Origin: Ahaetulla prasina
Taxonomy: Eukaryota; Chordata; Lepidosauria; Squamata; Colubridae
Length of the DNA: 64,000 nucleotides
NCBI RefSeq assembly: GCF_028640845.1
Contig: NC_080542.1
Span: 18,317,783-18,381,782, forward strand
Direction of reading: 5' to 3'
Shown: positions 9,863 to 59,000 of the stretch, one piece after another
Layout: every line of letters starts with the position of its first letter
Position numbering within the stretch: position 1 is the stretch's first letter
Position numbers and translations under genes: made by a program
The notes under the pieces: generated by a model
Database searches by the model: none
Told to the model about the DNA's origin: nothing
Seen by the model: the letters and a program-made list of their open reading frames with translations, nothing else

Positions 9863-10244
9863 GCGAGTGGAACAAACCAACTAAAATTTGGGGATATTTT
9901 CTCAATTTTGGGGATTTTAAACCAGTTGTCTTAGAATGGTTCCGAGGTCGTTTGATAACTTCTTAATTGTTTATGATCCCCTTTAGAACATCTCAAGTTC
10001 CTCTACTCTGTAGAGATCATGAAGCGATTTATACTCAAATTCTCAATAATAGTTCAAAGATTTTTCAGATGTTAATTGCTCCTCTGACTGATTCTAGCAA
10101 TCAGTCCTAGGAATTCCAAATTTTCCATTATTAGAAATTACAAGAAGATGGGGGGGTTGGATTTATTTAAAGAGAATGACTGATGAATGATTGATTCAAA
10201 GATTATAATCCATTTTAATTTCTTATTCTGGCCATTCCCAATAG

Positions 10245-10371
10245 ACACCACCTTCTTCTACCTGTGTAGAAAGTTGCCATCCTGGGTACCGGAAATTGAT
10301 TAAGGAGGGGAAACAGGTTTGCTGCTATGACTGTGGTGAGTGTTTAGAGGGAAGCATTTCCACCATGATTG
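10245..10371 (+). pseudogene. V2R-B exon 5 (Cys-rich linker)
   Basis: 127 bp, [18 protein letters not shown] to SISTMI plus one base. It carries six cysteines of the NCD3G domain. It reads YDCGEC where the other copies read YDCVEC. Donor ATTG|GTAAG. Confidence 0.87.
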
Positions 10372-53047: not shown

Positions 53048-56000
53048 GCAAGTACTCCTTTGAAAGAAACTGTGATATGACTTTCAAGGTTTCTTTTTTA
53101 ATGTGATTGTGTTCAGGATATTCTGATTATATTTTTTCCAATTTAAATGAGAATTAAAACTGGTTTAGGCATAATTTTTATTTATTTATCTGTCTTGGTT
53201 AATGATGTTTCAGAGGTTGGAATATACTGTAGCTGTTGAATGTTAGACCTGCAGAAAAAACAATGGCTACCAACCAGCCTTCCATTGAGGACGTGTATAC
53301 TGTACGAGTCAAAATGAAGGCTGTGAAAATATTTACAGACCCCTCACATCCTGGGCATAAACTGTTTCAACTCTTACCCTCAAAACAACGCTATAGAACA
53401 CTGCACACCAGAACAACTAGACACAAGAACAGTTTTTTCCCCCAAAGGCCATCACTCTGCTAAACAAATAATTCCCTCAACACTGTCAAACTATTTACTA
53501 AATCTGCACTACTATTAATCCTCTCATCGTTCCCATCACCCATCTCCTTCCACTTATGACTCTAACTTTGCTGCTTGTATCTTACTATTTATACAGATAT
53601 TGTTTCCTGATTGCTTATTTGTAGCCTATGACTATCATTAAGTGTTGTGTTGTACCTTGATGAAGGTATCTTTTCTTTTATGTACAGTGATAGCATATGC
53701 ACCAAGACAAATTCCTTGTGTGTCCAATCACACTTAGCCAATAATATTCTATTCTATTTTATTCTATTCTATTCTATTCTATTCTATTCTATTCTATTCT
53801 ATTCTATGTTGCCTTGTAGACATGGTTTTTCATGTTGCTGTTGTTATATATAAATTAAATCTATTCATGAGAAGATTTGATTTTGATGACACTGTTCCTC
53901 TATTTTTTATTTAACATTCAAAATTGAAAAAAAAACATATCAAAACTACTTAGCATGAATATTTTAATAAAGGTTGTAAATACAAATCTATGATTTTCAT
54001 ACTATATAATGACACTGTTAGGATTTTATCACTTCTTTTCTGATTTGCAAATACTTCTATATACAAAGACTTGTATTTTGGTATATAGACTTATATAGAA
54101 TAGAATATATAGAATAGTATATATACACCATCACTTGATGAAGGTATCTTTTCTTTTGTGTACACTGAGAGCATATGCACCAACACAAATTCCTTGTGTG
54201 TCCAATCATACTTGGCCAATAAATTCTATTCTATTCTATTCTATTTTATAAAGATTGTGGTTGCTTGAGTTTTCTATTTGTCATGCTGTAAATCTTCTTG
54301 GTACTTTAAGGCACACAGAGATGGGGCGTATTTAATTATATGAATTTGTTAAAATGTTATATCATAAGTATTTGGATTATCATTAACAGTTGGGAAAATT
54401 CATCAGTTTCTGCCCTTCAATTGCACTGCTGCCCTACATGCATGAAACAATCCCTGCAATTGCAGGAAAGCCGTTTTAAACTTCTCAAAATGTGATGCAC
54501 AGTTCCCACTTGATCCTCAAGTGAGATTCATACACTGCACTTCAGCCCAGATACATCATTATAGATACATCAATCAGGTTCCTGATTGCTTATTTGTACC
54601 CTATGACTATCATTAAGTGTTGTACCTTAGAATTCTTGATGATCTTTTTCTTTTATGTACACTGAGGGTATATGCATCAAGACAAATTCCTTGTGTGTCC
54701 AATCATACTTGGCCAATAAAAAATTCTATAAAATTTTATTCTATTCTATTCATTATACTGTAGATGCAGAGAAAAACATTATGAAAACTGTCTGTCTAAA
54801 TCCAATTATTGTCACATTCGAAGACTATAGAACTAAATGAAATTCTTCTTGCAGGTCATTGCCTAAAAACTTCCAGCATGTCCTAGCCTTCAGTTTTGCC
54901 ATTCAGGAGATCAACAGGAATGAGAACTTGTTACCCAACATCACCTTGGTCTCCAAGATATATGAGAATGGTTTTCAGGCAATGAGAGCCTCTGAGAGCC
55001 TTTTCACTCTCTTCTTTGTGGAAGGCCAGTGTCAGCTCAACTACAGAAAAGGAAAGGACCAAAACGTCATGGCTGTCATTGGTGATCTCCCTTCCCAAAA
55101 CACCATCCAGATGGCCAACATCTTAAATGCCTACAAAGTTCCACAAGTAGGTATCTGGGCTCACATAAAGGTACAAGAAAAGAAAGGATGGTGGTTAAAA
55201 ATGAAGAAAATCCCTCAAAAACAGCTGCAATATTGGGGAACTCATTTTAGAGTTTATTTATTTATTTACTTTGCCAGAGAAACGCAATGCATCAATTACT
55301 ATTACAAGAGTAGTAATTCTTAAAAAGCCCAAACTTATTTAGTTTATAGAAATTGTACAGCTATCACTGTTTTGGACTACTACTTCTTCTTCTTCTTCTT
55401 CTTCTTCTTCTTCTTCTTCTTCTTCTTCTTCTTCTTCTTCTTCTTCTTCTTCTTCTTCTTCTTCTTCTTCTTCTTCTTGTATCACTTTGGGTTCTGGTTC
55501 TTGCTCTTCTGGCAGCCTCAACCATTGTTAATTGATATTGTAGTAGTGTATCTGATCATCTGATCTCTCCATCTTCTGGGTGTGCCTCATGTTCTTTGAA
55601 CCTTTTGTACCTGCCACAAGAATTTTAAATATGTTTATCCTAATTATCTTAGCCTCATAATATAAAATGGAAGATGAATACTGTTAGATCCTTAATGAAT
55701 AATCTGCCTCTCTTATTACTCATTCCTATCTGCTTTGCATCTCTACATAGTACAATCAAAGACTGAGATTATTTTGTCTAAAAAGGGATGAATGAAATGC
55801 TAATGATGGTCTGGTTGCAAAAGCTCTCAGTAAAGACTTGTTGATTTCCAGATTTAGTATTTATCTCAACCATCAAGATTTTTTATTGAAAAACAAGGTT
55901 CAAAATAAATACTTCCTTTTTAAAAAAAAATATATGTCTACAGAAGCAGTATGTAATCTAAAAGCACATCATTATTATTCCCACTCTGCAGCTCAGTTAT

Positions 56001-59000
56001 GGTACTTTTGACCTGGCATTGAGTGATAAAAAGCAGTTTCCTTCTTTCTTCTGGATGACTCCAAATGAAAACCTCCAGTATGCTGGGATTATTCAGCTCC
56101 TGAAATATTTTGGATGGAATTGGATTGACCTGCTCATTCCAGAAGATGCCACTGGAGAGGGATTTCTCAGAATTCTGAGACCAAAATTCATTCAGAGTGA
56201 TATTTGCATTTCTTTAATTCAATTTATTCCAAGATTGGCAAATTATGACCCAAGTACTTTACGGAAGAATAATCTAGGTAAAATAGGACACATCCTATGG
56301 TATAGTAAAACCAGTGTAATACTTGTTTATGGAGACATTCAATCTATAGAAGGCTTACGAGCAATTCTGGAATGCTATGAACTTGGTCAGAGGTTTCCAG
56401 TAGAGAGGGTTTGGGTCATAAGTGCTCTCTGGGATGTCACTTCGGTCTTTGAGCCTCAGAAATTCACCCCATTATCCTTCAATGGCAGCTTGTCGTTTGC
56501 CCTACACACAAATAGCGTACCAGGCTTTCAAGAGTTCCTTGAGAAGATAAATCCATATCAATCTAAAATGTCTTTTATACCTCATTTCTGGAGTTCTGCA
56601 TTTATTTGTTCATTTCCAATACACAATATCTATGCACCAGGCAAAGGAAGCTGCACTGGGAGAGAGGATCTAAGGAGTCTTCCTGGAACTGTCTTTGAAA
56701 TGGAGATGTCTGGGCAGAGCTACAGTATTTACAATGCTGTCTATGCTGTAGCACATGGTCTCCATGTTATGCATTCATCCAGAGCCAGGCAGAAAACAAG
56801 AGGCAATGGAGAGAAGTGGAATTTGCTGAAAGTCCAACCTTGGCAGGTGACTTATGGTTCCTTCTAATGTAGCCATAATAAAATGTTGATATCAATTTTT
56901 ACAATATTCAAAATTCAATAACAGTATATATTTTACAACAGTCTGCATTTATCTGAAAGTGTCTGAACAAAACATGATTTCATTTAGGTAGGTAGGAAAT
57001 TATGAGGTGGAGCCCGAGGGTAGAGTCAAATGCATCATCAGTTTGGTGTCTCTACACCTCCATAAGAGACCCAATTTCTCACTTCTCTGTTATCTTTTAG
57101 CTTCGTTTATCTCTGGAAAACCTCCATTTCAACAATAGTGCTGGGGAAGAAATAGTGTTCAATGAGAATGGAAACGTTGCAGCAGCATATGATATCATCA
57201 ACTTGATTACTTTCCCCAATCGATCCTTTCAGAAGGTCCAAGTTGGAGGTATTGAACCTCAGCGTTCTCAAAAGGAAGATCTCACCATAAATACAACTGC
57301 CATTGTATGGAATCCCAAATATAAGCAGGCGAGTTAAACAAACCAACTAAAACATGGCAATATTTTCTCAATTTCTTGGATTTTTAACCAGTTATCTAAG
57401 AGCGGTTCCAAGTTGTTTGATATCTTCTCAAAGGCATTAGAACACTTTTGTATCCTGGAAAAATAAGAAGCTCTCAATTCTACATTATACGGTGACACTG
57501 AAGGGAAGATTTACCTTTCCTTAACAATTAATTGTTAATTAATATTAACAATTACAGTTATAATAATACAAACAGGAAAAGGAAATGTTTTGTGTGTGTG
57601 TGTGTGTGTGTGTGTGTGCGAAAATTAGCTGTTTCTTCCTTTTAATTGTTCAAACCCCCACTAACAGTTAAAAGGAAGAAACAGCTGCGATCACACATTG
57701 CTCCCAGAAGCACGAAGCTGAAGCCTGAAGATGACGAAAGAGAGTTCGTCAAACGCCGCCAAGACACTTCCAATTTTACACGGAGAAAACCCGAACAACC
57801 AAAGACCTATATACAAACACCGTGAAAACCTCAGAAAACAAATATATATATATATATATATATATATATATATATATATATATATATATATATATATATA
57901 TATATATATATATATATATATATATATATATATATGTGTGTGTGTATGTATGTATGTATGTATGTATGTATGTATGTATATGGAGAGCGAGAGAGGGAGG
58001 GAGGGAGGGAGGTAATAGATAGATAGATAGATAGATAGATAGATAGATAGATAGATAGATAGATAGATAGATGGATAAACAGACAGACACAAACACAGAC
58101 ACAAACACAGAAACAGACAGACTGACAGATAGACAGACTTTTCCACTAATGAGTTCAATGTTTGAATCAGGTAAGACACAAAGCACAAAAACAGTCATCG
58201 CACCTATTTTCCACTTCAGGCCAATATAAACATCCCATTTCCCTAGAGTTTTGCAGGAAATGTTTCTCTTGCCACTTCCCTTAGCCAATTCAAAAATCTG
58301 GGGACAGCTTCTGGTCAATGAGAAATTCAGTGGGTTTTTTTCTCTTTTTCTCAGAGAACTGAAAAGCTTTTCAGCAGACATTGGTCCTTGTGTACTTTGA
58401 AATACAGACAAGATAGGACTATTGTGCCATCCCATACTACAGATGGATTTATACCAAACTTGGCCATCACCCACGTCCTGTGCTCACCACATTTGCAACA
58501 CACTTCTAATTGTCAGATGGTTTTTTCATAACTGAGTATGTTCAGAAAAAGGGAGGCCACTGAAGCTGGACCATCTGCTTGTTTTGCTTCACCCATCCTT
58601 ACATGGAAAATCAGGATTGCTCTTGAGTGGCATTGAGTGGTATTTACATACTGTGTAGGGGCCATGAATTGATTTGTACTCAAATTTCCAATAGCAGTTC
58701 AAAGATTTTTCAGATTTTAACTACTTCTCTGCCTGATTCTAGAAATCAATCCTAGGAATTCCAAATTTTGCATTTATAGAAATGACAAGAAACTGGTTTT
58801 CTTTAGGATTTATTGCTGACTGCTGATTCATATTGACTGCTGACTGATTGATTCAAAGATTATAATCCATTTTAATTCCCAACTCTGGCCATACCAATAG
58901 ACACCACCTTCTTCCACCTGTGTAGAAAGCTGCCATCCTGGGTACCGGAAATTGATTAAGGAGGGGAAACAGGTTTGCTGCTATGATTGTGTTGAGTGTT

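Follow-up and report, generated by a model that had tools for sequence, protein, structure and literature searches.

Are the introns that begin with GC in an array of snake pheromone-receptor genes ordinary introns of a rare type, or are they sites at which splicing is controlled? The question is raised by a window of 64,000 nucleotides (the whole stretch that was analysed) from Ahaetulla prasina, contig NC_080542.1, positions 18,317,783 to 18,381,782, which appears to be a tandem cluster of type-2 vomeronasal receptor (V2R) genes. Four copies lie on the plus strand, copy 1 being truncated at its 5′ end and copies 2, 3 and 4 being full, and a paralogue lies on the minus strand. An initial annotation had placed a GC-AG intron 4 in all four plus-strand copies and had proposed splicing as a control point for the family. 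The genomic sequence indicates that these are probably ordinary U2-type GC-AG introns, inherited from an ancestor of the array and serving as constitutive splice sites. An intron start of this kind is rare, though already known.

The donor of intron 4 reads CAG/GCGAGT (the slash marks the splice junction), and the first base of the intron lies at 9863, 21618, 42500 and 57329 in copies 1 to 4, exactly where the initial annotation had put it. The sequence CAGGCGAGT has exactly four matches in the window, all on the plus strand (at 9860, 21615, 42497 and 57326), while 100 shuffles gave a mean of 0.07 matches and never reached four. In the gene models, the GC donors of intron 4 are in phase 0 and are joined to AATAG/ACACCA, which defines GC-AG introns at 9863..10244 (copy 1), 21618..21999 (copy 2), 42500..44532 (copy 3) and 57329..58900 (copy 4). 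As had been claimed, this join gives KQ-TPPSS, and it does so in all four plus-strand copies; the frame runs uninterrupted across it in all three full-length copies. Intron 1 is likewise GC-AG, in phase 2, in copy 2 (15919..18689, AAC/GCAAGT), copy 3 (32464..36038, AAG/GCAAGT) and copy 4 (53048..54854, ATG/GCAAGT). An independent recount of the complete plus-strand introns agreed with the earlier figure: 11 of the 18 are GT-AG and seven are GC-AG (four times intron 4 and three times intron 1), each of the seven having a GC donor and an AG acceptor and restoring the coding frame when removed. The proportion is 6/15 in the three intact genes, as copy 1 adds only a partial set, and 7/20 when all complete V2R introns of the window are counted, including those of the minus-strand gene.

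Do known receptors have the same junctions? A protein search with the product of copy 3 reached 7933 proteins, and the homologue counts given here refer to the 120 that were listed (P numbers). The best five are snake records named type-2 vomeronasal receptors. P0001, a Crotalus adamanteus type-2 vomeronasal receptor representing a cluster of 50, has SLRG-RPLPKN and NPKFKQ-TPPSATC at the two junctions; the joins of copy 3 are the same but for one residue. At intron 1, the GC join of copy 3 is letter for letter that of P0001, while copy 2 gives SLRG-TSLPKN and copy 4 gives SLKG-WSLPKN. Seven records concern the region of exons 1 and 2: P0001, P0002, P0003 and P0010 share the GC-type junction, P0004 and P0005 use an upstream junction, and P0121 covers 25% of the region. 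In the search with the copy 3 product, P0030 also has the intron 1 junction of P0001. For intron 4, the spacing was read with the pattern C..[SPTA]C.PG, which takes the first cysteine as given and fits 72 segments from 70 of the 120 listed proteins; the other 50 do not match it and were left out of the spacing count. A proline stands four residues before the first cysteine in 72/72 segments, and W, F/Y, P and C are found at the exact spacing in 62 of them; the ten misfits come from P0012, P0014 (two), P0016, P0063, P0071, P0074, P0092 (two) and P0095. On the evidence of sequence, the predicted joining of the GC-AG introns as drawn is well supported.

The strength of the donors was compared by their pairing with U1. 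The energies are plain duplex minima, with the register unforced, pseudouridine treated as U and U6 pairing omitted, and so give a rough ranking of the donors, not a prediction of how fast they are spliced. The GC donors of intron 4 reach -7.8 to -8.9 kcal/mol in the four copies, close to the -8.0 kcal/mol of the intron 5 GT donors of these genes; the GT donor of intron 2 in copy 4 is weaker (-7.2 kcal/mol), while five of the seven donors of introns 2 and 3 are stronger (-12.2 to -13.7 kcal/mol). Apart from the C, the intron 4 donor fits the U1 consensus in all copies (CAG/G.GAGT). It has been described that GC sites are compensated by a donor that otherwise matches the consensus (PMC2490688). 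At intron 1, the remainder of the donor is near the consensus in copy 3 (-7.8 kcal/mol) and weaker in copy 4 (-5.8 kcal/mol). Copy 2 is different: its AAC/GCAAGT donor is not near the consensus and, at -3.3 kcal/mol, pairs with U1 more weakly than any other of the 18 donors. Position 15918 is C and not G at -1, and the codon specifies Thr, in contrast to Arg in copy 3 and Trp in copy 4. Since the donor lacks this G and pairs with U1 no better than a neighbouring GT, its use is doubtful, and copy 2 may splice intron 1 poorly.

How may two GC donors have come to be shared by the copies? In the minus-strand paralogue, which is a diverged gene, both of the complete introns within the window are GT-AG, and the donor of intron 1 is AA/GTAAGT. 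This single gene would fit an ancestral GT at intron 1, with T replaced by C at +2 on the way to the plus-strand copies. In the proposed course of events, the gene that founded the array would have changed from T to C at +2 of the donor in two of its five introns (1 and 4), the remaining U1-pairing site would have been strong enough to tolerate the C, and duplication would then have copied both GC donors. Most likely, both were inherited from one ancestor of the copies. Splicing at them would be normal and constitutive, would take place in the vomeronasal organ and would have no regulation attached. The joined coding sequence is under purifying selection; the ratio of nonsynonymous to synonymous rates (dN/dS) is 0.25-0.29 in pairwise comparisons of copies 2-4.

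Several points weigh against this explanation. The agreement at the junctions is with homologous proteins that are themselves annotations, and the Crotalus clusters P0004 (2 sequences) and P0005 (6 sequences) are annotated with an upstream donor in exon 1, giving NPM-PLPKN; the same upstream site, AT/GTGT, exists in the three full copies. GT ancestry at intron 4 is assumed. The GC donor of intron 1 in copy 2 pairs no better than its neighbouring GT (-3.3 versus -3.4 kcal/mol). Weight-matrix scores are lower for GC than for GT donors (PMC7242645), unlike the duplex energies obtained here. In addition, the survival of a CpG at the intron 4 donor is unlike plain neutrality, a hint that comes from small numbers.

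This last point bears on the possibility that the GC donors have been kept by selection as weak sites, so that the splicing of introns 1 and 4 is slow or regulated and the amount of full-length receptor is limited. I regard this as unlikely; the likelihoods attached to this and the following alternatives are not in every part exclusive of the preferred explanation. The +2 base of intron 4 forms part of a CpG (GCG). Were this C to become T, the donor would read CAG/GTGAGT and match U1 more fully. CpG survival was compared in two ways. In the alignable introns of copies 2-4, pairwise comparison showed 7 of 52 CpGs retained, a number to which the donor itself may contribute up to three times. In the second comparison, 250 nucleotides around each exon were taken from three copies for exons 1-3 and from four copies for exons 4-6, and only gapless columns holding CG, TG or CA were considered, leaving 8 flanking columns. 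The CpG of the intron 4 donor is kept in 4/4 copies, while none of the other seven flanking columns is kept in all copies. On the other hand, 14/33 exonic columns are kept, including 2/4 within exon 4, and the retention at the donor is explicable if exon 4 was homogenised among the copies and the donor hitch-hiked with it. The U1 pairing of intron 4, being like that of the GT donors of intron 5, also speaks against a weak site. Exon 4 is 228 nucleotides long, and its skipping would keep the frame in the three full genes. Participation in alternative 5′ splice events is more frequent for human protein-coding GC-AG introns (31.6% versus 10.1%; PMC7242645), but the published links of GC-AG introns to alternative splicing that were considered are mostly statistical, let-2 being the experimental case (PMC7242645, PMC2490688). 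A neutral account has also been given, by which GC sites can arise by drift where the surrounding site is strong, with alternative splicing taking up some of them afterwards (PMC2490688). No measurement made here speaks for splicing as a control point of these genes, as the initial annotation had suggested it.

It is quite unlikely that intron 1 is alternatively spliced, the upstream donor AT/GTGT in exon 1 giving a short N-terminus and the GC donor giving a long form. The short junction would read NSM-PLPKN in copy 3 and NSM-SLPKN in copies 2 and 4. In its favour, the upstream site keeps the frame in these three copies and is the one annotated in P0004 and P0005. Its U1 pairing is very weak (-1.3 kcal/mol), however, and its use would remove 141 nucleotides (47 residues). 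Moreover, a gene finder that accepts only GT would choose this donor if the true donor were GC, so that the Crotalus annotations may be an artefact.

A very improbable alternative is that the GC of intron 4 is held by selection against CpG decay and that some transcripts retain intron 4, producing a soluble decoy receptor or a brake on the amount of receptor. By computation, retention of intron 4 would lead to a stop after two codons in copies 3 and 4 (Ala-Ser being added) and would add 23 residues in copies 1 and 2; retention of intron 1 would lead to a stop after five codons, the split codon being counted. If retention of intron 4 were true, the product of a full gene would be the ligand-binding domain, ending before the cysteine-rich and membrane domains.

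Could the true introns be GT-AG after all? All GT-AG alternatives within 60 nucleotides of the sites were enumerated in copies 2, 3 and 4, and 25 pairings were found to keep the frame: each copy has five at intron 1, and at intron 4 there are four in copy 2 and three each in copies 3 and 4. All 25 delete residues that are present in P0001. Their GTs are weaker in U1 pairing than the GC donor, except at intron 1 of copy 2, where three pairings share a GT that is marginally stronger than it. The initial annotation had stated that the nearby GT at intron 4 fails the frame. This holds with the acceptor fixed, but in each of copies 2-4 the reading frame survives when the GT at +5 is combined with an AG that lies 25 nucleotides into exon 5. 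A corresponding form of intron 1 would combine its GT at +5 with an acceptor 22 nucleotides inside exon 2. In the three full copies, both of these forms leave the frame open with no stops, and a pyrimidine-rich stretch precedes the inner acceptor of exon 5. At intron 4, however, the GT-AG form would exchange TPPSSTCVE for AK, with the loss of a conserved cysteine of the nine-cysteine domain, and a test peptide scores 59.8 bits for NCD3G in this form as compared with 68.1 bits in the GC form, both above the family cut-off of 38.9. The alternative junction patterns, as written for introns 1 and 4, are matched by none of the 120 listed homologues. The +5 GT donors pair poorly with U1 (-1.8 to -3.4 kcal/mol), the GT at intron 1 of copy 2 being no worse than the GC; at intron 4, the neighbouring GT reaches -1.8 to -2.9 versus -7.8 to -8.9 kcal/mol for the GC donor. 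I consider GT-AG introns at these two positions hardly credible.

Finally, the notion of seven independent GC-AG introns was rejected, since the copies are duplicates that share their two GC positions, and only these two count as independent. About 0.8% of the splice sites in protein-coding genes of human and mouse are GC-AG, with an enrichment in first introns (PMC7242645), and the proportion is below 1% in model organisms (PMC7072748). At the 0.8% rate, which is derived from mammals, the probability of at least two GC-AG introns among five is 6.3e-4, whereas the naive probability of at least seven among 18 is 6.2e-11. The latter is pseudo-replication, because two of the five introns of one gene were copied by duplication. 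The statement of the initial annotation that the share is far above the usual rate is thus weakly supported, since it comes down to two positions in one ancestral gene. The same simple model predicts about 44 genes with at least two GC-AG introns among 20,000 nine-intron genes; two in one gene are therefore not extraordinary.

What would the ordinary, inherited GC-AG introns mean for gene prediction? Introns 1 and 4 of these genes would be modelled wrongly by any pipeline that requires GT-AG. If both GC donors are common to this subfamily of snake V2Rs, programs limited to GT donors would lose exons 1 and 4, or join them wrongly, in many genes, and the exon 1 junction of the P0004 and P0005 Crotalus clusters may exemplify such a mis-annotation. 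Correct gene models matter for the counting of intact receptors in squamates. The regulatory reading, if true, would matter more; the small hint from CpG survival is its one support.

The gene models are as follows. Copies 2, 3 and 4 each have six coding exons with intron phases 2,0,0,0,1 and no internal stops. Copy 2 (15644..23392, plus strand, 899 amino acids) has exons at 15644-15918, 18690-18981, 19345-20199, 21390-21617, 22000-22126 and 22470-23392. Copy 3 (32186..45906, plus strand, 896 amino acids) has exons at 32186-32463, 36039-36330, 37034-37876, 42272-42499, 44533-44659 and 44984-45906; its product, the only one scanned for domains, contains ANF_receptor, NCD3G and 7tm_3. Copy 4 (52770..60230, plus strand, 901 amino acids) has exons at 52770-53047, 54855-55146, 55992-56846, 57101-57328, 58901-59027 and 59305-60230. 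The coding sequences of these three copies are 94.7-95.8% identical. Copy 1 (8149..11641, plus strand) lacks the six-exon structure, being 5′ truncated: it consists of the 3′ part of exon 3 (8149-8447) and exons 4, 5 and 6, with the remaining frame open, and its exon 6 shares 98.4% identity with exon 6 of copy 2. Exons 1 and 2 of copy 1 were not found in the window by the patterns and searches used. The minus-strand paralogue (1589..7254) has exons 1-3 at 7254-7010, 6375-6078 and 2443-1589, and the rest lies beyond the window.

Some further features of the copies were observed. Exon 3 of copy 3 (37034-37876) is 12 nucleotides shorter than those of copies 2 and 4, four residues (LKVQ) being missing before a conserved PWQ. 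A 35-nucleotide stretch that matches the sequence immediately 3′ of exon 3 of copy 2 occurs twice in intron 3 of copy 3 (38258-38292 and 39299-39333), and both repeats adjoin long repeated minus-strand open reading frames. Intron 4 of copy 4 contains long AT and GATA-type microsatellites at about 57840-58075. Intron 5 of copy 4 carries a duplicate of the acceptor together with the first 38 nucleotides of exon 6 (59141-59195, 98% identical over 55 nucleotides); splicing to this possible decoy acceptor would lead to a stop after 26 codons. On the minus strand, an open reading frame at 3421-4668 bears the motif YIGQTNRRISARIEEHK, which looks like that of a GIY-YIG nuclease as in Penelope-like elements. 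Pieces that resemble one another in reading lie at 4654-5370 and 25151-25919.

How do these genes compare with known systems? They resemble the six-exon V2R and OlfC genes, which encode class C G-protein-coupled receptors, in having six coding exons, a long exon 3 and the seven-transmembrane region in exon 6; the zebrafish OlfC genes have six exons with strictly conserved phases (PMC1764893). Among the papers listed in a literature search, no title or abstract beginning concerned the splice sites of squamate V2R genes, no paper pairing "vomeronasal type 2 receptor" with "GC-AG" was found in the collection searched, and the passages of PMC10869828 that were consulted contained no splice rule. 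The combination of "V2R", "noncanonical splice" and "vomeronasal" led to PMC11035023, a study that required GT-AG for exon 3 only and in which 121 mouse V2R exon-3 sequences are reported to obey it. This concerns just the splice sites on either side of exon 3, also GT-AG in the present array, and has no bearing on introns 1 and 4. Intron 3 of the camel WAP gene is GC-AG, like the introns described here, and led to wrong database predictions (PMC6350295); unlike them, it belongs to a single gene and was established from cDNA and protein. Intron 10 of C. elegans let-2 also has a GC donor, which is known to be regulated there: replacement of GC by GT abolished its developmental regulation (as told in PMC2490688). 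The closest likeness is to the vertebrate U2-type GC-AG introns, which have the same GC at +1/+2, AG acceptor, consensus-like donor and normal intron position. Those favour first introns (PMC7242645), and intron 1 is one of the two sites in the snake array. The array differs from them in that two of the five introns of one gene are GC-AG and have been multiplied to 7/18 by tandem duplication.

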